Shown: positions 4,488 through 32,137 of the stretch, one piece after another
How positions within the stretch are numbered: the first letter of the stretch is position 1
How the letters are laid out: each line of letters begins with the position of its first letter
DNA from: a virus
DNA: 33,745 nt
Strand: one strand, 5' to 3'
IMG/VR virus record: IMGVR_UViG_3300042863_001878
Coordinates: 1 to 33,745 of that record
Notes under the pieces: model-generated
Databases searched by the model: none
What the model saw: the letters and a program-made list of their open reading frames with translations, nothing else
What the model was told of the DNA's origin: nothing
Translations under genes and position numbers: made by a program

Positions 4488-4645
4488 TGAAGCGACTTTG
4501 GCGCATTTGGGCAAAGGCATTAGGAGAGAAAGCAGGTAATACGGACACTGAGTCTGACCGCATTGCTTTCATCCGTACTCTTATTGTGTTATCATATATT
4601 ACAACAAACCTGTTTATCGTAGCAGGTGTTATACGGCATTGGTAA
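4487..4645 (+). CDS. Small single-pass membrane protein
   Basis: 52 residues, start shared with the previous stop (TAATG). A basic amphipathic N-terminus (MKRLWRIWAKALGEKAG) is followed by one membrane segment (residues about 31-49, TLIVLSYITTNLFIVAGVI). Small proteins of this design are common in large myoviruses; function unknown. Confidence 0.6.
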   Translation: MKRLWRIWAKALGEKAGNTDTESDRIAFIRTLIVLSYITTNLFIVAGVIRHW

Positions 4646-4647
4646 AA

Positions 4648-5499
4648 ATGAACAAATTAAAAATATCAGAATTATTTTATAGCATACAAGGTGAAGGTCG
4701 TCATATGGGTGTACCAAGTGTGTTCTTACGCACGTTTGGTTGCAACTTAAAGTGCGCTGGTTTCGGTATGCCAAAAGGTAAGTTGAGTGAAGAAAGAATT
4801 AAAATTGCTGAGTCTAGCCAAAATTACAAAGATTATAAATCCCTTCCGCTTGTCAGCACGGGATGTGATTCTTATGCATCTTGGGACCCTAATTTCAAAC
4901 ATCTTAGTCCTTACTATGATACCGGCGATGTTGTTAGTCGCATTATGGATATACTGCCATTCAATGCTTGGCATGATGAGCACTTGGTTATCACGGGCGG
5001 TGAACCGCTTCTAGGATGGCAACAACTATATCCTGAGTTGCTAAGTAATGAAAAAATGTTGAACTTAAAAGAGTTAACATTTGAAACTAACGGTACACAA
5101 CCATTAGGTGAAGAACTTAAAAAATATCTACAGACTAAGTGGCATAAACAAAAGGGAATTGAAACAGTTACATTTAGTGTAAGTGCTAAACTCTCTAGTA
5201 GCGGTGAAGATACGAAAGAAACTATCTGCCCTGATATTGTAGCAGAATACGAAATGTATGGTCACACATATCTTAAATTAGTTGTTGCAACAAATGAAGA
5301 TGTTGAAGAAGCATTAGAGGTGGTTAACACATATCGAAAGAACAATTTCTTTGGCAACGTGTATCTAATGCCAGTCGGTGGTGTTGAAAGTGTGTATAGT
5401 TTGAACAATCGTAGAGTAGCAGAACTTGCTATGAAACATGGATTGCGCTACAGTGATAGACTTCAAGTACCGTTGTTTAAAAATGAGTGGGGCACTTAA
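4648..5499 (+). CDS. queE: QueE-like 7-carboxy-7-deazaguanine synthase (radical SAM), split Cys motif
   Basis: 283 residues. Start ATG 4648 is preferred to an in-frame TTG at 4639. QueE converts 6-carboxytetrahydropterin to 7-carboxy-7-deazaguanine using SAM and a [4Fe-4S] cluster. The N-terminus is typical (SELFYSIQGEGRHMGVPSVF, then RTFGCNLKC), and VITGGEPLLG is the SAM-binding GGEP motif. The canonical CX3CX2C motif is interrupted. C32 and C36 are followed by AGF, not by the third Cys. After about 36 residues comes GCDSYASWDP, which matches the usual sequence beginning at the third Cys (C73). It is the third preQ0-pathway gene here. Confidence 0.85.
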   Translation: MNKLKISELFYSIQGEGRHMGVPSVFLRTFGCNLKCAGFGMPKGKLSEERIKIAESSQNYKDYKSLPLVSTGCDSYASWDPNFKHLSPYYDTGDVVSRIMDILPFNAWHDEHLVITGGEPLLGWQQLYPELLSNEKMLNLKELTFETNGTQPLGEELKKYLQTKWHKQKGIETVTFSVSAKLSSSGEDTKETICPDIVAEYEMYGHTYLKLVVATNEDVEEALEVVNTYRKNNFFGNVYLMPVGGVESVYSLNNRRVAELAMKHGLRYSDRLQVPLFKNEWGT

Positions 5500-25657: not shown

Positions 25658-26860
25658 ATGAACCAAGAAAACAACAAACTAGACCATTGTTCCTTTTGTG
25701 GTAACCACAAAGACGTAGTTAAAAAACTTATCGTAAGTGAGTCAGTAGCAATTTGCAGTGATTGTATCGACCTTTGTACGCAACTTATAAAAGATGATGT
25801 TATCGTTGAGATAGACAAAAATTCTTTCCCAAATTTAGATCCAATAGAAATCAAAGCATACTTAGACAAATACGTTATCGGTCAAAGTGCCGCTAAAATG
25901 GTACTAAGTGTTGCTATTGCAAATCATTACAAACGAATTGAGAATCCACCTAAGGATTTAGAAATTTCAAAAGGTAATATTCTATTAGTAGGCCCAACTG
26001 GTTCAGGCAAGACTTTACTAGCTAAGACTGTTGCTAAATTCTTAAACGTTCCCTTAGTTGTTGCTGACGCAACCAGTCTTACCGAAGCAGGATATGTAGG
26101 TGATGATGTAGAGTCAATGATTAGTATGTTAGTCAATGCGGCAGGCGGTGATGTAAAACTTGCTGAAAAGGGAATTGTATTTGTTGATGAAATTGATAAG
26201 ATTGCTCGTAAATCTGAAGGTGCCAGTATAACACGTGACGTTAGTGGTGAAGGTGTTCAACAAGCATTGCTTAAACTTGTTGAAGGCACAGTATGTCGCA
26301 TTCCTGCAAGTGGTGGTAGAAAACATCCCGGTGGTGACATGTTAGAAATCAACACAAAAAACATTTTGTTTATTGCAGGCGGTGCATTCGTTGGTTTAAA
26401 AGATATTATCAAGTCTCGCAAAAAAGGTACCACTATTGGCTTTGGTGCAGAAATTAAATCAAGTGACGATCAAGTAAGCTTAGAACAAGTTACTCCAGAT
26501 GATCTTACACGATTTGGTATGATTCCTGAATTCATTGGTCGATTTACTACTACAGTGTCACTAGCAGATTTAGACAAAGAGCAATTATTAAAAGTACTGA
26601 CCGAAATCAAAAATAACTATATCAGTCAATATCAATATCTATTTGAAATCGACAATGTGAAGTTAGACTTTTTAGATGAAGCATTGGAACAACTTGTAGA
26701 TAATTGCTTAAAACTAAAAACAGGTGCACGTGGGTTACACACTGAGATTGAAAAAGCACTGATGCCTCATATGTACAATCTCAAGCAGTATAGTAAAAAT
26801 AACATAAAAGAAATATCTATTTCTAAAAATATGGTATTAGAACCTAAATCACTTCTGTGA
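25658..26860 (+). CDS. clpX: ClpX, AAA+ unfoldase
   Basis: 400 residues, close to bacterial ClpX (about 420). The N-terminal zinc-binding domain is intact (C11, C14, C33, C36). Walker A is GPTGSGKT (about 112-119) and Walker B is VFVDEIDKI. Pore loop GYVG (about 145-148) and RKH loop (about 221-223) are present, as is the arginine/sensor region TGARGLHTEIEKAL. The ClpP-docking IGF loop is kept (I260-G261-F262 in TIGFGAEI), so it should dock on ClpP, host or phage. A clpP lies 4 kb downstream. There is no ribosome-binding site; TATAAATA (25650-25657) directly abuts the ATG. Confidence 0.95.
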   Translation: MNQENNKLDHCSFCGNHKDVVKKLIVSESVAICSDCIDLCTQLIKDDVIVEIDKNSFPNLDPIEIKAYLDKYVIGQSAAKMVLSVAIANHYKRIENPPKDLEISKGNILLVGPTGSGKTLLAKTVAKFLNVPLVVADATSLTEAGYVGDDVESMISMLVNAAGGDVKLAEKGIVFVDEIDKIARKSEGASITRDVSGEGVQQALLKLVEGTVCRIPASGGRKHPGGDMLEINTKNILFIAGGAFVGLKDIIKSRKKGTTIGFGAEIKSSDDQVSLEQVTPDDLTRFGMIPEFIGRFTTTVSLADLDKEQLLKVLTEIKNNYISQYQYLFEIDNVKLDFLDEALEQLVDNCLKLKTGARGLHTEIEKALMPHMYNLKQYSKNNIKEISISKNMVLEPKSLL

Positions 26861-26892
26861 CCTAAAAACTTTTATTATTTTACGCAATCTGA

Positions 26893-26898
26893 TATAAT
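26893..26898 (+). promoter_or_regulatory. hsp20 promoter, TATAAT/TAAATAC
   Basis: TGA-TATAAT (26893-26898) with no clear -35. TAAATAC (26898-26904) overlaps it and is the late-like motif. Either would start the RNA near 26905-26909, just at the first leader hairpin. Confidence 0.5.
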
Positions 26899-26907
26899 AA
26901 ATACATG

Positions 26908-26961
26908 TTCAGATGCCGATGGTCGGGTCTGAAATCAAACGTCATACTTGCTTAATAGGAG
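26908..26961 (+). promoter_or_regulatory. Candidate ROSE-like RNA thermometer in the hsp20 leader
   Basis: First hairpin: TTCAGA (26908-26913) pairs with TCTGAA (26928-26933), with inner CCGA/TCGG and a 3-nt loop. Second: C-TTGCT (26947-26952) faces the ribosome-binding site AGGA-G (26957-26961) across TAAT. TTGCT against AGGA with a bulged G is the ROSE arrangement that opens on heating. Both hairpins sit in a leader of about 60 nt. Confidence 0.5.
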
Positions 26962-26967
26962 AAAAAC

Positions 26968-27411
26968 ATGACAAAAACTTTATCCCTTCGTTCCCTCGAC
27001 ATTCCGTCAATTCACAAATTTGGTATCGGTTTCGATAACATGTTTGATGAGTTAATGCGAATAAATGCGCAACAATCTTTAAACTATCCCCCATACAATA
27101 TCGTTAAACAAACAGAAGACACTTTCTACATTGAAGTTGCTACTGCTGGTTTCCGTGAAGGTGAGGTACACATCAATTTAGACAACCGCCTGTTGAGTAT
27201 TAAAGGTCGCATTTCACGTGATGAAGAAGGCGCGCAAGAGTACTTGCATCGTGGAATTAGCAGCCGAGACTTTGAACGTGAATTCACACTTGCTGAACAT
27301 GTTGAAGTTATCAATGCTAGTCAACAAGACGGCATTTTAACAATCTATTTGGAACGCAAAGTTCCAGAAGAAAAGAAGCCAAAATCTATTGCTATTAATT
27401 ACACTAAATAA
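26968..27411 (+). CDS. Small heat-shock protein Hsp20, IbpA type
   Basis: 147 residues, an ATP-independent holdase of the alpha-crystallin family. IbpA-like features are YPPYNIVKQTEDTFYIEVA, the DNRLLSIKG strand and the EYLHRGISSRDFEREF loop. QDGILTIYLER is the A-x-x-x-G-x-L region. The C-terminal I-x-I anchor is IAI in KSIAINYTK. The N-terminus has KTLSLRSLDIPSIHKFGIGF, as in IbpA relatives. AGGAG lies 6 nt before the start, inside the predicted thermometer hairpin. Likely assists virion protein folding or holds substrates for ClpXP. Confidence 0.93.
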   Translation: MTKTLSLRSLDIPSIHKFGIGFDNMFDELMRINAQQSLNYPPYNIVKQTEDTFYIEVATAGFREGEVHINLDNRLLSIKGRISRDEEGAQEYLHRGISSRDFEREFTLAEHVEVINASQQDGILTIYLERKVPEEKKPKSIAINYTK

Positions 27412-27425
27412 TATAATGTAATAGT

Positions 27426-27456
27426 GTGTGCGGTCACCCCGATCGCACACTTTTTT
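27426..27456 (+). terminator. Rho-independent terminator after hsp20
   Basis: GTGTGCGGTC (27426-27435) pairs with GATCGCACAC (27441-27450) around ACCCC, one G-T wobble, then six T. It separates hsp20 from clpS 12 nt later. Confidence 0.88.
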
Positions 27457-27467
27457 GAAAGAAAAAA

Positions 27468-27773
27468 ATGTCTAAAACAGATACTAAAGTAAAAATCAAA
27501 CCAAACATAGGTCTTCAAGAACCTCCTCTATTTAAAATCATTTATATCAATGATGATGTAACTTCTATGGAATTCGTTGTAGGATCACTAGTTGATTATT
27601 TTAACTATACCTCAGATTCCGCAGTGAACATTACACAGAATATTCATAATGACGGAAGTGCAGTAGTAGCAATTCTGCCTTATGAAATTGCAGAACAAAA
27701 GGGTATTGAAGTTACTTTAGATGCTAGAGCGCAAGGATATCCTTTACAGGTAAAAGTAGAAGCAGAAATTTAA
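27468..27773 (+). CDS. clpS: ClpS N-degron adaptor
   Basis: 101 residues. The core PPLFKIIYINDDVTSMEFVV has the N-degron pocket residues N28, D29, D30 and gate M34. The conserved His (H60 in NIHNDG) is present. ClpS delivers substrates with bulky N-terminal residues to ClpA/ClpC. No ClpA is seen here, so it may work with the host ClpA or an unusual partner. It follows a strong terminator with only a weak A-rich ribosome-binding site, so it may be read through or need its own signal. Four-base convergent overlap with the next gene. Confidence 0.93.
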   Translation: MSKTDTKVKIKPNIGLQEPPLFKIIYINDDVTSMEFVVGSLVDYFNYTSDSAVNITQNIHNDGSAVVAILPYEIAEQKGIEVTLDARAQGYPLQVKVEAEI

Positions 27774-28462
27774 ACTTCTATGTCTATTCTTTTAGCCCAG
27801 TAAGGATTTTTCTTATTGTAAGGGTTAGACAAATAGTTGATACTATCTAGTTTGGTGTCAACTATTTTTCCATATGAGCCATATGCCCAATGAGATATTT
27901 TTGATTCTAAATCAGCAAGTAATATCATTGTTAGCTCTGGTAGTATTTTTGCATCAGCAGGAACTTCCCCAAAGTATAGTTTTTCGTTAGGGACACCGTT
28001 TGTTAACATTAGGATCTTTTTAACATCTAAATGTTTTTGTAGTTTTTCGATAGAACTCTTTAGATAAATTAGATCCTCAAACCTACTTATACTATGTTTT
28101 TCTTCAAAATCATTTTCTACTTCTCCACCATACCAGCCCGGGCACCCTAATATGGCGACACCATCAATTATAACAACATGATGGTGCAATAATGCAACGT
28201 TTCTAATTTTCTTACAGACACGGGAAATCTCTTTAACTCGACTATCATAGTCTTCTATACCTTCGAATTCTAACGAACCCGGGGTATAGAAAACTCCCTG
28301 ATAAAACCTAGTTAAATGACTTAACGTTAATGCAATAGTCCTAATGTCATTACTGATATTTCCAGCAATTACACAATACAAACTTGTTGCTTTATTTTCC
28401 CAATTAAAACTATCATTAGGTGATAGATTCAAGTCACTTATTAAGTCAAACCCAATTTTCAT
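27770..28462 (-). CDS. Metallophosphoesterase-like pseudoenzyme
   Basis: 230 residues with the outline of a calcineurin-type phosphoesterase: FDLISDLNLSP at the start, then VIAGNISND, YTPGSLEFEG, VAILGCPGWYG, ILMLTNGVPNEK, SHWAYGSYGK and a final YLSNPYNKK. In active enzymes these read D-x-H, GD-x-x-D, GNHE, (T)H-x-P and GH-x-H. Here H is N12, D is N35, NH is S63-L64, the next His is Asn and the terminal HxH is lost. Only D10 remains, so it cannot bind two metals as usual. Probably a binding or regulatory protein. It has no ribosome-binding site; CTAAATA lies 4 nt upstream. Confidence 0.7.
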   Translation of the reverse strand: MKIGFDLISDLNLSPNDSFNWENKATSLYCVIAGNISNDIRTIALTLSHLTRFYQGVFYTPGSLEFEGIEDYDSRVKEISRVCKKIRNVALLHHHVVIIDGVAILGCPGWYGGEVENDFEEKHSISRFEDLIYLKSSIEKLQKHLDVKKILMLTNGVPNEKLYFGEVPADAKILPELTMILLADLESKISHWAYGSYGKIVDTKLDSINYLSNPYNKKNPYWAKRIDIEV

Positions 28463-28465
28463 CTA

Positions 28466-28825
28466 TTATTTAGCAACAGTCATTGTAGGTGCTTTTTTCA
28501 CACGCGGCTTAGCAGGTGCTTTTGCAGGTGCTTTTGCAGGTGCTTTTGCAGGTGCTGCCGGTGCCTTCTTTGCTCTGGGTTTTGCTTGACGTTTCGCTTC
28601 GACTGGTTCCGCTACTGGTGCAGTAGCCTCAACTCGGTCATCGGCTGACTTGCCGACTTCAACAGGCGCTTCTACTACTGGTTCAACCTTTGCAGATTCT
28701 ACTACAGGTGGCACATCTACCTTGTAAGGTGCCCCGTTTGTTGCTTCTTTGACTAGCTCTTTATCACGGAAAAAGAAGTACCAAACTCCAACGGCTGCTA
28801 CAGCCAATATAATAACTAATTCCAT
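28466..28825 (-). CDS. Membrane-anchored protein with Ala/Pro/Lys-rich H1-like tail
   Basis: 119 residues. One N-terminal membrane segment (LVIILAVAAVGVWYFFF) is followed by a Val/Glu/Pro linker and a basic tail of APAKAPAKAPAK repeats (RAKKAPAAPAKAPAKAPAK). The tail resembles histone H1-like C-termini and could bind DNA at the membrane. Good AGGAG ribosome-binding site about 6 nt before ATG 28825. A TAAATACT motif lies about 30 nt upstream. Encoded by a tandem 12-bp repeat that may vary in copy number. Confidence 0.65.
   Translation of the reverse strand: MELVIILAVAAVGVWYFFFRDKELVKEATNGAPYKVDVPPVVESAKVEPVVEAPVEVGKSADDRVEATAPVAEPVEAKRQAKPRAKKAPAAPAKAPAKAPAKAPAKPRVKKAPTMTVAK
28512..28559 (+). 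repeat. Tandem 12-bp repeat, three full copies
   Basis: gcaggtgctttt repeats at 28512, 28524 and 28536, with a partial fourth copy from 28548. It encodes the APAK repeat on the minus strand. Confidence 0.9.
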
Positions 28826-28890
28826 TGTATTCTCCTAAAAAGTAATTAACATAGTATTTAACGGTACACGTAGAATACTAAAATTTTATA

Positions 28891-28898
28891 CTAAATAC
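28891..28898 (+). promoter_or_regulatory. T4-late-like motif before sprT
   Basis: CTAAATAC, 3 nt before the start at 28902, which has no ribosome-binding site. Confidence 0.4.
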
Positions 28899-28901
28899 AA
28901 T

Positions 28902-29399
28902 ATGCCGAAATCTAATACACTTCTAGATTTGATGTCCGAGGATCTTCCCAATAGAACATTCCAAAAGAAATTGCGCTATAGGACAAGTGAGAGAGAAGTT
29001 TTGGCATTGTTTAAAGTCATAAACAAAGAAATTTTCAATAACAAGTTACCTATTCCCAAGATAGAAGTCATGCCAAATTGTAGGACGTATTGGGGATTGT
29101 GTTCGGCAAATGCGTTGGTATTGCATTCTGACAAGACAAAATCAAACTGTACGATAAGACTAATGGATAAATGGTTTTGCAAACAATGGCTTATCACTAC
29201 ACTAGCACATGAAATGTGTCATCAATATCAATGGGATGTGATCGGGTATCAACGTTTAAAAGAAGGCCGTGATCCTCTTATGAGTCACGGTCCCACTTTT
29301 TTCATATTCCGTGATAAGTTAGCCAAACGCGGCATATCTCTAAAAAGATCACATGGGATGCGCAGGTGGTTTCGTCATCAAAACTTATTTAAGTGTTAA
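28902..29399 (+). CDS. SprT-like zinc metalloprotease
   Basis: 165 residues of the SprT/Spartan-like family. The zinc motif is TTLAHEMCHQYQWD (HExxH) and a later SHGPTFF supplies the third His. The N-terminal LFKVINKEIFNNKLP is the family's usual lead-in helix. Spartan proteins cut DNA-protein crosslinks, but the role of phage SprT-like proteins is not established. Basic C-terminus (SLKRSHGMRRWFRHQ) fits DNA binding. No ribosome-binding site; it lies next to a late-like motif. Confidence 0.85.
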   Translation: MPKSNTLLDLMSEDLPNRTFQKKLRYRTSEREVLALFKVINKEIFNNKLPIPKIEVMPNCRTYWGLCSANALVLHSDKTKSNCTIRLMDKWFCKQWLITTLAHEMCHQYQWDVIGYQRLKEGRDPLMSHGPTFFIFRDKLAKRGISLKRSHGMRRWFRHQNLFKC

Positions 29400-29403
29400 C
29401 AAG

Positions 29404-29413
29404 CATAAATACT
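29404..29413 (+). promoter_or_regulatory. T4-late-like motif before the 29418 gene
   Basis: CATAAATACT, 4 nt before ATG 29418; no ribosome-binding site. Predicted start point coincides with the ATG. Confidence 0.5.
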
Positions 29414-29417
29414 CATT

Positions 29418-30956
29418 ATGCGTGAATACATCAATCTAATCCAACAACTATCCGAAGGTACGGGCATTGTCGGTCTAAGTGCCGGCGAAATCATAAAATA
29501 TGATGCTCGTTTTAAAAAATTTATAGAATACATAGAAGGTAAAAAACCCTTTACCACAGTAGACGGGGACAAAGTTATCGTTGATCCTAGAGAGGCAAGA
29601 CGCTTCTTAAATTTAAGAGCACAAGATATGTTCAAGGGTAGCTTAAAAGCAAGACTATCTGACGGAGACGAGATAGCCTTGAGTAGTCTAGCCAAAACAA
29701 AAGATTTTGGTGGCGCTGCACCTGAAGCCGGACAAGATCCTAGTTCCGCAGGCAAAGAAGCACTATTAGTAAAACCAGGTCAAATTGGAATTGTAGATCA
29801 AAATTATCCAGCAGAAGATTTTTATGACGTTATTGCAAGTAACCCAACATTATCCGGTACTGACTATGGACAAGTAATTCAGCAATTGGCTCAATATATC
29901 GTTTCAGGTGAATACGTTATGTTGCCTCAGGAATACAAGGGAGCGGCAAAAGAAAAAGTACGTAAAGCAATTGTTGATTATGCCGGCGAATATCTAGGTG
30001 TATTGGCGTTACTGTACAATCGTAGTCGCTTCCCACGTAAAGCACAATTTCAAGAATGGTTGGGCGGAGATATCAATCAAATTTCATTAAATTTTCCTAG
30101 CAAAGCAAACAATAATCTTGCTGATAGTTTTGCTACACTTACTAATAGTACTACAAATCACACATTGAATATTTCTAGTAAAGGAACCGGGGGCGGCGCA
30201 GCTCCTGCTATCTCGGGTCTTGTAATCCCTGAACATGTTAAATCAGATCCTAACTATGCAACTGTTGTTGAAATGATTGACATTTGCAAAAATGATTCTG
30301 TGTTAATGTCCATTTTTAATCTGATGGATTTAATTTACAGCGTAAATCCAAAAGCAATCGATGAGAGATATCATCCGTTCTTGCCGTTCTCGCAAAAAGA
30401 ACCTAAATTACCTGCACTATGTAAGCAGAGTAATGATTCTAGAAAATCAGCAAATCCTATAGGCATACCTAAAAAATATAAGTCATTGTGGTCTAATGTT
30501 ACTGGTGGTGGAACTGAAGGCGGTAAAGTATTATATGGTATTAGAAAACAAGTTGATGAAGCAATCAATAAGAAAGATGCTATTCCTGAATTCAAAGACG
30601 CTATCTTGCAGATTTTGGAAATGAACTTCATCCAACAATATTGTGACTACAAGGCCGGCGAACTAACATTTGCAACTCAATGGCCCGCAAAACTAGACGG
30701 CAAAATTAGCTTGGAGAACAAAGCAAGTACTACTGACCCGTTATCAAATGGATTCAGTTTTAAATTGGGCCGTACTGATAATAGTGTAAGCTCAGAACCC
30801 GGTGATGAAACTGTAGCTGATCCGGATACTGGTTTGGATACCGATGATGATTTCATGTCCAAAGCAGATAGCCTAGCAGGTGGTAGTGCTCCCAAAAAAG
30901 CAAAATCAAAAACCTCAGCACCCGAAGTGGGCAACGTTGGGCGCAAAAAACGTTGA
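29418..30956 (+). CDS. Putative head-packaged structural protein
   Basis: 512 residues, not recognised. The N-terminus MREYINLIQQLSE-G closely resembles the T4 capsid-targeting propeptide (MKTYQEFIAE) and has a gp21-type L-x-E cleavage site after residue 13. The body is Ala, Gly and Asn rich with a Gly-rich stretch (SSKGTGGGAAPAISG). It ends in an acidic then basic tail (KKAKSKTSAPEVGNVGRKKR). Preceded by a late-like motif without ribosome-binding site, consistent with a virion gene. The stop overlaps the clpP promoter -35 box. An internal head protein injected with DNA is the favoured guess. Confidence 0.5.
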   Translation: MREYINLIQQLSEGTGIVGLSAGEIIKYDARFKKFIEYIEGKKPFTTVDGDKVIVDPREARRFLNLRAQDMFKGSLKARLSDGDEIALSSLAKTKDFGGAAPEAGQDPSSAGKEALLVKPGQIGIVDQNYPAEDFYDVIASNPTLSGTDYGQVIQQLAQYIVSGEYVMLPQEYKGAAKEKVRKAIVDYAGEYLGVLALLYNRSRFPRKAQFQEWLGGDINQISLNFPSKANNNLADSFATLTNSTTNHTLNISSKGTGGGAAPAISGLVIPEHVKSDPNYATVVEMIDICKNDSVLMSIFNLMDLIYSVNPKAIDERYHPFLPFSQKEPKLPALCKQSNDSRKSANPIGIPKKYKSLWSNVTGGGTEGGKVLYGIRKQVDEAINKKDAIPEFKDAILQILEMNFIQQYCDYKAGELTFATQWPAKLDGKISLENKASTTDPLSNGFSFKLGRTDNSVSSEPGDETVADPDTGLDTDDDFMSKADSLAGGSAPKKAKSKTSAPEVGNVGRKKR

Positions 30957-30980
30957 CATTTCATAAACTTCCTGTATAAT
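30953..30980 (+). promoter_or_regulatory. Promoter for clpP
   Basis: TTGACA at 30953-30958 (contains the preceding TGA stop), a 16-bp spacer, then TATAAT at 30975-30980. The clpP start has AAGGAAG about 6 nt upstream. Confidence 0.8.
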
Positions 30981-31007
30981 AGTAATTATTTTATACAAAG
31001 GAAGTTT

Positions 31008-31598
31008 ATGAGTCTAGTCCCTATCGTTTTGGAACAAACAGCCCGCGGTGAGCGTAGTTACGATATTTACAGTCGATTGTTACGTGACCGTGTTATCTTG
31101 CTTGAGGGCGAAGTACACGACCAAATGGCAAACTTAATTGTTGCCCAATTATTATTCCTAGAGAGTGAAGATAGCGGAAAAGATATCAGCATGTATATCA
31201 ATAGTCCCGGTGGTAGTGTCACTGCTGGTATGGCAATCTATGACACTATGCAGTTTATCAAGCCTGATATTCAAACTATTGTTATGGGACAAGCATGTAG
31301 TATGGGTAGCCTGTTAGCACAAGCAGGAGCTAAGGGTAAACGAATGATGTTGCCAAACGCACGACACATGATTCACCAGCCAAGTGGTGGTGCTCGTGGT
31401 ATGCAAAGTGACATTGAAATTTCATACAAAGAAATCACATATCTTAAAAAGCGGTTGACCGAAATCTATGTCAAACACAATAGTGCCGGCAAGACATACG
31501 AAGAATTCGAACGTGACATGGACCGAGACAAATTCATGAGTGCTGAGGAAGCACTTGAGTACGGCTTGATTGATAAAATCATCGAAACACGCGGTTGA
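31008..31598 (+). CDS. clpP: ClpP serine peptidase
   Basis: 196 residues, same length as bacterial ClpP. The catalytic triad is intact: Ser98 ([11 protein letters not shown]), His123 (MIHQPSGG) and Asp174 ([16 protein letters not shown]). [20 protein letters not shown] is the conserved oxyanion and axial region. ClpP forms two heptameric rings and degrades substrates unfolded by ClpX. The N-terminus ([20 protein letters not shown]) is the usual one. Its own strong promoter separates its expression from clpX, so it may be made earlier. It could pair with the phage ClpX or mix with host ClpP. Confidence 0.95.
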
Positions 31599-31623
31599 CA
31601 ATAAATCCAAGGTGTAGTATACT
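31595..31623 (+). promoter_or_regulatory. Promoter for the phosphatase-like gene
   Basis: TTGACA at 31595-31600 contains the clpP stop codon; ATAAAT follows, then a 17-bp spacer and TATACT at 31618-31623. Confidence 0.8.
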
Positions 31624-31642
31624 ATCTTCAATTGGAGATATT

Positions 31643-32137
31643 ATGCCTTGGATTCAAAACGTAGCAAAGAGCGATATTGCAAAGGGGTTTCACATCAACC
31701 CCGGAGAGAACGCCATGCTCATTCAAATCGTTGACCCACCTGGAGACTTCCCTACTCCAAAGCACACTTTCAAAGAAGTGCATCAATTTCAATTCCTTGA
31801 CATTGAGGAGCACGACTTTGCATTGGATGAAGAAATGCGTTGCAGTCAAGAACAAGCCAACCAGCTTGTTGCACATTTACAACATGCATTAACTAACCAC
31901 ATGAATGTCATTGTTCATTGTGTCGCCGGTGTCTGCCGTAGCGGTGCAGTTTGTGAGGTAGGCGTCATGCTTGGCTTTGACGACACCGAAGCATTCCGTA
32001 GTCCTAACTTGTTGGTCAAGCACCGCATGATGAGGTGCTTGGGCTGGACTTATGATGCTGACGAACCACACACCATCAACGGTGTAACTACCGATTGGGG
32101 CTTTACCCTCCCCAAAGAGCGTGAAGGCGATATCTAG
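31643..32137 (+). CDS. Tyrosine / dual-specificity phosphatase-like protein
   Basis: 164 residues from ATG 31643, which has GGAG 6 nt upstream; the longer ORF would overlap the promoter. The P-loop is VHCVAGVCRSGA (HC-x5-R-S). An upstream acidic stretch (FLDIEEHDFALDEE) may hold the general acid Asp. Size and motif fit a small protein tyrosine or dual-specificity phosphatase. It could dephosphorylate host proteins during infection. Early-type promoter supports a host-takeover role, but the substrate is unknown. Confidence 0.8.
   Translation: MPWIQNVAKSDIAKGFHINPGENAMLIQIVDPPGDFPTPKHTFKEVHQFQFLDIEEHDFALDEEMRCSQEQANQLVAHLQHALTNHMNVIVHCVAGVCRSGAVCEVGVMLGFDDTEAFRSPNLLVKHRMMRCLGWTYDADEPHTINGVTTDWGFTLPKEREGDI

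Follow-up and report, generated by a model that had tools for sequence, protein, structure and literature searches.

A syntenic clpX-hsp20-clpS-clpP locus with a candidate ROSE-type hsp20 leader in a putative jumbo T4-like phage

Described phage Clp loci and RNA thermometers

Clp genes are already known from jumbo phages. In the Wroclawvirus phages PA5oct and Paride, clpX, hsp20, clpS, and clpP occur within 11.3 kb, in the same order as in the window analyzed here (IMG/VR record IMGVR_UViG_3300042863_001878, positions 1 to 33,745), and ClpA and DnaJ are encoded nearby. Unlike the window, PA5oct also encodes FtsH and has a ligase gene between clpS and clpP, and its Clp sequences are just ~33 to 53% identical to those of the window. 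Agrobacterium phage Atu_ph07, in which seven Clp-like proteins have been noted (PMC6102473), and Sinorhizobium phage Phosso share ClpX, Hsp20, ClpS, and ClpP and have the order hsp20-tk-clpS, but their genes, unlike those of the window, are scattered over tens of kilobases. ROSE-type leaders upstream of hsp20 were found in both groups in this analysis. Large freshwater phages, namely, moraphages and pmoC-phages, carry HSP20, DnaK, or ClpA, and the accessible portions of the reports on them describe no RNA thermometer (PMC12619734, PMC7674155); moraphages belong to a different lineage with predicted Bacteroidota hosts.

The ROSE and ROSE-like thermometers of bacterial hsp20/ibpA genes (RF00435, RF01832, and RF02523) lie directly before hsp20 and consist of the same two hairpins as the element described below, with a bulged G in hairpin I and, opposite the Shine-Dalgarno sequence, a U(U/C)GCU motif. 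Known phage RNA thermometers are those of lambda cIII, the fourU element of SPbeta blyA, and a fourU element of a sigma70 gene in a member of the Caudoviricetes (PMC10586365, PMC11182007). These are likewise temperature-sensing leaders in phage genomes, but they belong to another structural class and have other targets, heat-shock chaperones not among them, and the ROSE type is not represented. The literature searched yielded no report of ROSE thermometers in phages.

The Clp module and its possible roles

The 33.7-kb window is best read as part of the genome of a jumbo T4-like myovirus that has PA5oct/Paride, Phosso, and Atu_ph07 as relatives, and the terminase of a long relative is nearest to those of Phosso (52%) and PA5oct/Paride (50%). 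The first-pass annotation placed four genes at positions 25658 to 31598, and all of them were confirmed there as intact plus-strand genes, with the ClpX, ClpP, and ClpS residues that it named both present and conserved across the clade. The AAA+ unfoldase ClpX (25658 to 26860) passes the NCBIfam ClpX model (525.8 bits; cut-off, 359) and has the zinc domain, Walker A and B motifs, GYVG pore, RKH loop, and IGF docking loop; the zinc-binding Cys11, -14, -33, and -36, GYVG, the Arg-Lys of RKH, and the Gly-Phe of IGF are kept in 98/98 clade sequences. ClpP (31008 to 31598) matches Pfam CLP_protease (E = 2.1e-82) and NCBIfam NF001368 (318 bits; cut-off, 249) and is a cellular-type, full-length S14 peptidase, the Ser98-His123-Asp174 triad of which is invariant in all 109 distinct clade sequences. 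The N-degron adaptor ClpS (27468 to 27773) has the ClpS fold and N-degron pocket and passes the Pfam cut-off (E = 5.1e-23), while the NCBIfam equivalog cut-offs were not reached; N28, D29, T32, and H60 are kept in 93/93 sequences, and M34 is kept in 86 of these. The product of hsp20 (26968 to 27411) is an IbpA-like small heat-shock protein (Pfam HSP20, E = 2.4e-17).

Relatives were collected as IMG/VR viral contigs seeded by ClpS, and a locus was counted only where the contig reached the neighboring gene. They share the gene order clpX-hsp20-clpS-(MPE)-clpP, in which MPE is a metallophosphoesterase-fold gene with altered metal-ligand motifs (27770 to 28462, minus strand) that is convergent to clpS. 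In these relatives, clpX lies upstream of clpS in 66/66 loci and clpP downstream in 50/50, hsp20 is in its place in 73/75, and the MPE gene is found in 74/74. An SprT-like metalloprotease gene (28902 to 29399, plus strand) is a frequent neighbor, and the gene upstream of clpP (29418 to 30956, plus strand), which encodes an uncharacterized protein, is present in only part of the clade. The convergent MPE gene between clpS and clpP, the ClpA of relatives, and the hsp20 leader had been overlooked in the first-pass annotation. The clp genes are under strong purifying selection, with dN/dS values of 0.04 to 0.08 for clpX, 0.03 to 0.07 for clpS, and 0.02 to 0.10 for clpP, and the value for hsp20 is 0.13 to 0.17.

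That the four genes come from bacterial DNA or were acquired recently and in isolation is extremely improbable. Some "phage" records with clpX or clpP are indeed mislabeled bacterial contigs, and matches to ClpX, ClpP, and ClpS of "Acinetobacter phage MD-2021a" were discarded as such; however, synteny is kept in dozens of viral contigs with phage genes on both flanks, ClpX of the clade forms a single group (support, 100%) that is separate from bacterial ClpX, and cultured phages hold the same gene set. Contamination was rejected on these grounds, and the isolated, non-conserved acquisition that would have counted against the first-pass annotation does not agree with the synteny and conservation in relatives. 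It is possible, though doubtful, that phage ClpS and ClpX redirect host ClpP and ClpA, or that phage ClpP acts as a poison of, or a substitute for, its host counterpart, thereby seizing the host proteome. The substrate-binding residues of ClpS are kept, and jumbo-phage ClpS was proposed by Iyer and coworkers to recruit host ClpAP (PMC7824862). The evidence against this reading comes from relatives, which hold ClpA, ClpX, ClpP, and ClpS together, each with its docking parts, so that a phage-only complex is possible, although the phage proteins may also dock with subunits of the host. A ClpA-type ATPase is encoded in 14 of the 15 long relatives, 39 to 86 kb from the Clp locus, outside the span covered by the 33.7-kb window, which has no ClpA gene. 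It has a Clp_N domain and two AAA domains, and its best NCBIfam model is ClpA, at a score below the equivalog cut-off (786 versus 993 bits); the IGF ClpP-docking loop is present in 13/13 ClpA sequences examined, including that of PA5oct. ClpA is thus the probable partner of phage ClpS, the presence of which points to ClpAP rather than ClpXP.

A function of the Clp genes in virion processing, also raised in the first-pass annotation, is unlikely, given that 13/15 relatives and PA5oct also encode a distinct prohead protease of the S77 (T4 gp21) type; this enzyme likewise makes ClpP unlikely as the sole head protease. The fuller proposal, in which ClpP is the head protease and ClpX and Hsp20 serve as assembly chaperones or scaffold helpers, has little probability. 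ClpP-fold proteins are labeled "head maturation protease" in PHROGs, a capsid-scaffolding role for HSP20 has been proposed (PMC7674155), and ClpP is marked in the PA5oct record as detected by ESI-MS/MS. However, two other PA5oct proteins, ribonucleotide reductase and DNA ligase, bear the same mark, which means that the sample was not clearly pure virion, and ClpP of the window is matched by models of cellular ClpP and falls short of the head-maturation equivalog cut-off (104 versus 120 bits).

A candidate RNA thermometer upstream of hsp20

Within the set, Hsp20 is the part with visible, sequence-predicted regulation. Its leader (26902 to 26974) is a candidate ROSE-type RNA thermometer of two plus-strand hairpins. 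Hairpin I (26908 to 26933) has a bulged G and covaries heavily in the alignment, with compensatory, both-sided changes in 8/10 pairs. Hairpin II (26941 to 26972) has two pairing arms, in which GUCAU (26941 to 26945) pairs with the AUGAC of the start codon and UUGCU (26948 to 26952) lies opposite the Shine-Dalgarno sequence AGGAG (26957 to 26961). The GUCAU-AUGAC pairing recurs in clade hsp20 leaders; in the Pseudomonas element, by contrast, the start codon is left out of the pairing. The leader covariation score was 0.307, compared with 0.159 ± 0.008 for shuffled and ≤0.085 for slid alignments. The Rfam ROSE_3 (RF02523) match in the window stops at the hsp20 start and scores 25.4 bits; the gathering threshold of 43 bits was reached nowhere, the best relative scoring 36.5, and the element is therefore named ROSE-type and placed outside formal RF02523 membership. 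The features of ROSE-like elements, namely, U(U/C)GCU facing the Shine-Dalgarno sequence in the 3' hairpin, a stable hairpin upstream, and a heat-shock gene next, were all found. In ViennaRNA calculations, the hsp20 start codon is more hidden than those of clpX and clpS, and it opens only slowly on warming, without a sharp transition (mean unpaired probability, 0.13 at 10°C and 0.38 at 50°C). The predicted fold of the leader in the window itself has no unusual stability (z, -1.0). Covariation supports a ROSE-type structure, from which a temperature response is predicted.

Other plus-strand signals in the locus are an intrinsic-terminator-like hairpin with a T run between hsp20 and clpS (27426 to 27450), a consensus match only, and a perfect sequence match to a sigma-70-type promoter, TTGACA-16-TATAAT, before clpP (30953 to 30980). 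The clpP start codon also looks buried in a ViennaRNA hairpin, which was not accepted as a thermometer because its upstream arm overlaps this promoter and is probably not transcribed.

The ROSE-type element is widespread before phage heat-shock genes. In a ROSE_3 search of the relatives and Atu_ph07, 14/14 matches with E values of ≤0.0014 were at hsp20, dnaK, or groES, and with R1, a model of the leader element, in 1.26 Mb (E ≤ 0.005), all 96 matches precede hsp20 (82), dnaK (11), or groES (3). A pattern-only scan of viral contigs placed 80/83 matches before the same genes, and the element precedes hsp20 in 5/5 cultured marine phages tested, which were picked by protein. Roughly 500 phage records contain hsp20. 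The phage element differs from bacterial ROSE in its occurrence in phages, its scores below the Rfam cut-off, and its additional positions before dnaK and groES; phage dnaK itself is not new, as it is already in Lak and other huge-phage records and in moraphages. It is fairly likely that phage heat-shock genes are governed in cis by ROSE-type thermometers in PA5oct/Phosso-like jumbo myoviruses, Kyanoviridae cyanophages, and a SAR11 phage, and that their repetition before hsp20, dnaK, and groES in some jumbo phages constitutes a viral heat-shock regulon independent of host sigma factors. An unlikely alternative is that the leader is a conserved translational regulator of ROSE ancestry that now answers, for example, late-phase timing and not temperature. 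The gradual computed melting and TAAATA-like motifs upstream of hsp20, clpS, and the SprT-like gene are in its favor, and a count of the T4 late promoter TATAAATA as a timing signal was uninformative (1 match versus 3.2 expected). However, the pairing of U(U/C)GCU with the Shine-Dalgarno sequence and the two-hairpin layout are as in tested Pseudomonas ibpA thermometers (PMC3669281), and the element is almost confined to positions before heat-shock genes.

Implications for phage protein quality control

We put at about three in four the probability that the window holds a portion of a protein quality-control system that the phage encodes, made up of ClpXP, ClpS acting with ClpA, and thermometer-led Hsp20. 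Phage ClpX would use its IGF loop to dock on phage ClpP and would degrade unfolded proteins, and ClpS would pass N-degron proteins to a phage ClpA, predicted for this phage from its relatives, with its own IGF loop for ClpP. Hsp20 would hold misfolding proteins, its leader hiding the Shine-Dalgarno sequence and start codon when cool and opening on warming, and further copies of the element, which some relatives have ahead of dnaK and groES-groEL, would form a small regulon in which the host heat-shock sigma factor is unneeded. The earlier proposal that the phage runs its own degradation machine is supported because the genes are conserved, syntenic, and under strong purifying selection and because relatives add ClpA; what stands is the gene set, and its activity is a prediction. 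A remaking of the host proteome, the other use suggested in the first-pass annotation, is a possibility. No Aat, FtsH, or above-cut-off tmRNA was found in the clade, sub-threshold tmRNA matches being disregarded, and substrates must therefore arrive by other routes.

The thermometer and the protease may be separate traits, since the Clp module may be missing from marine cyanophages in which hsp20 has a ROSE-type leader. Among cyanophages, HSP20 has been described as a core gene, and the functions suggested for it extend from host heat tolerance to capsid scaffolding. A thermometer before hsp20 argues for a heat-stress role, which is testable in cultured S-SM2, P-SSM2, PA5oct, and Paride. A phage with ClpX, ClpA, ClpP, ClpS, and Hsp20, and sometimes DnaK or GroEL, would be nearly self-sufficient in protein quality control, and the presence of the same element before heat-shock genes in many other phages suggests a system of protein care, controlled by temperature, that belongs to the phages themselves. 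The thermometer also suggests a route by which temperature could directly alter lytic infection, which is relevant to warming waters.

Conservation of the clp-hsp20 locus

The window is an IMG/VR virus record of 33,745 bases. Its clpX, hsp20, clpS, and clpP genes are all complete and match their families, and the catalytic, pore, zinc, and docking residues that the first-pass annotation had reported as kept in the Clp proteins are conserved across 93 to 109 distinct relatives. Codon comparisons with near relatives gave dN/dS values of 0.02 to 0.10 for the clp genes and 0.13 to 0.17 for hsp20, and these low values indicate that the proteins are being kept functional. A search for co-occurrence of the four genes in viral contigs, which the same annotation had proposed, showed that the gene set is conserved and that its order is kept in 80 ClpS-seeded contigs. 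Among contigs long enough to show each gene, clpX (66/66) and hsp20 (73/75) lie upstream, clpP lies downstream (50/50), and a metallophosphoesterase-fold (MPE) gene convergent to clpS is present (74/74); since the contigs were picked by ClpS similarity, these counts describe conservation within the clade rather than prevalence among phages. In addition, ClpX, ClpS, and Hsp20 are present at 26 of the 32 ClpP-seeded loci with wide flanks. The clp-hsp20 locus is a conserved trait of one phage group. Clp proteins are already known from jumbo phages (PMC6102473, PMC7824862).

The MPE protein (27770-28462, minus strand) has a predicted structure (pLDDT, 90.1) with a metallophosphoesterase fold, resembling PptH (TM, 0.71). 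Active enzymes of this superfamily usually carry DxH, GD, and GNHE at the motif positions where the phage protein has SDLN, AGN, and PGSLE. Because of these altered metal-ligand motifs, it may have lost enzymatic activity and been retained for a different function, possibly as a conserved pseudo-enzyme. Part of the clade also encodes a dual-specificity-phosphatase-like protein directly 3' of clpP (31595-32137, plus strand) and a small protein (28466-28825, minus strand) with a single hydrophobic stretch at its N-terminal end and a KAPAKAPAKAPA low-complexity tail. Across the window, eight perfect TTGACA-N15-18-TATAAT promoters (11128, 12999, 18685, 20315, 30953, 32954, 33242, and 33476, plus strand) occur against 0.06 expected, and the spacer ATAAATGGRTTTGGGTA is common to several of them. 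FolE and QueE matches (1223-1903 and 4639-5499, plus strand) suggest a putative deazaguanine pathway in this phage.

ClpA, virion processing, and relatives

The usual partner of ClpS is ClpA, which is absent from the window. A second Clp ATPase is encoded in 14 of the 15 long relatives, in open frames of about 750 to 770 amino acids with a Clp_N domain; in the relatives compared, it lies 39 to 86 kb from clpX. ClpA is its best-matching model, although its score falls short of the ClpA equivalog cutoff, which is unsurprising for a divergent protein. Both Walker A motifs and the IGF loop are present in all 13 ClpA-type sequences read, including that of PA5oct, and we infer that the phage of the window also has ClpA. 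A single ClpS and a single main ClpP are encoded in each long relative; the exceptions are a 524-kb record and two records that have an additional, divergent ClpP. The clade yielded no Aat, no FtsH, and no tmRNA above the cutoff. Processing of virion proteins, one role envisaged earlier for this ClpXP, is not the best reading, as a separate T4 gp21-type S77 prohead protease is encoded in 13 of 15 relatives and PA5oct, and the window ClpP does not reach the cutoff of the head-maturation model.

Related gene sets occur in PA5oct, Atu_ph07, Phosso, and Salicola SCTP-2. The terminase of one long relative is nearest to those of Phosso (52%) and PA5oct/Paride (50%), followed further off by a Vibrio phage (44%) and GAP32 (45%). 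In phylogenetic trees, clade ClpX falls outside bacterial ClpX as a single group with full support and a long stem, and clade ClpP clusters with ClpP of PA5oct, Atu_ph07, Phosso, and Salicola (89% support); these quick trees are long-branched, so deep placement is uncertain. The 524-kb record, IMGVR_UViG_3300027749_002876 (524,565 bases), carries ClpX, ClpA, ClpS, and ClpP each twice with one strong terminase match and therefore seems to be two phage genomes joined in assembly. The INPHARED entry "Acinetobacter phage MD-2021a" was rejected as a mislabeled bacterial contig (tig-clpP-clpX, leuA, and metX).

ROSE-type leader of hsp20

Upstream regions of hsp20 have CTTGCTTA and AGGAGAAA in common. 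In the window, the leader (26902-26974) of hsp20 (26968-27411) matches Rfam ROSE_3 at 26907-26973, ending at the start codon, with 25.4 bits (E = 0.0056; 701 bases searched) against a curated cutoff of 43 bits; as this threshold is missed, the element is named ROSE-type and is not filed under RF02523. Among the long relatives and Atu_ph07, ROSE_3 gave 14 matches at E ≤ 0.0014 (11 hsp20, 2 groES, and 1 dnaK). In an alignment of 51 distinct leaders, standard pairs make up 93.6% of pair cells, and the covariation score is 0.307, versus 0.159 ± 0.008 for shuffled alignments; slid structures score no higher than 0.085. Eight of the 10 pairs of hairpin I (26908-26933) change on both sides. Hairpin II (26941-26972) places UUGCU opposite AGGAG and GUCAU opposite AUGAC; it is nearly invariant because its partners are the Shine-Dalgarno sequence and the start codon, and covariation consequently offers little independent support for it.

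Distribution and predicted temperature response

A covariance model (R1) built on the aligned hsp20 leaders was applied to 93 loci totaling 1.26 Mb. Every one of its 96 matches at E ≤ 0.005 sits directly 5' of hsp20 (82), dnaK (11), or groES (3); for three of the hsp20 matches the assignment is positional, since the gene start was read at the earlier of two ATGs. The 96 matches do not count as independent events, because many of the hsp20 leaders had served to train the model or are close to leaders that had, and some loci share a contig or lie on closely similar ones. Training did not include the dnaK, groES, Phosso, or Atu_ph07 leaders, and PA5oct contributed only its 3' 41 bases. Full-length DnaK is encoded in 7 of 31 records, and five records have a strong GroES match. 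A pattern scan of viral contigs, defined by anti-Shine-Dalgarno, Shine-Dalgarno, and ATG only, gave at least 83 matches in 80 loci; among the matches listed, 74 precede hsp20, 5 dnaK, and 1 groES. A ROSE-type leader stands before a phage groES-groEL pair (G010, a viral record, 97000-101000) and, on a contig that also encodes ClpS (L411, position 4184, plus strand), before a 65-amino-acid non-heat-shock protein.

Five cultured or complete marine phage records (S-SM2, S-CAM7, P-SSM2, C48C1, and Pelagibacter phage HTVC115P) were selected on the Hsp20 protein and the spread of hosts, without regard to RNA, and in all five the element is present where hsp20 starts (E = 1.6e-9 to 0.0033; 4.9 kb searched). 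The weakest match, in C48C1 (19.4 bits), does not outscore the top off-target match (20.3 bits in 371 kb), and its assignment rests on position at the hsp20 start. HSP20 is already known from freshwater phages and cyanophages (PMC7674155), and DnaK from moraphages (PMC12619734) and huge phages.

Three earlier phage RNA thermometers are all of other kinds (PMC11182007), and a search of the open-access literature turned up no account of a ROSE-type thermometer in a phage. ViennaRNA folding predicts that the hsp20 start codon is more hidden than those of clpX and clpS, with no sharp opening, the non-canonical pairs of ROSE elements being outside the model. In the Pseudomonas ibpA thermometers that have been tested, a two-hairpin structure places U(U/C)GCU opposite the Shine-Dalgarno sequence (PMC3669281), and the phage leader likewise has two hairpins with a motif of this type in that position. 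Its resemblance to the ROSE class suggests that the phage hsp20 leader would respond to temperature.
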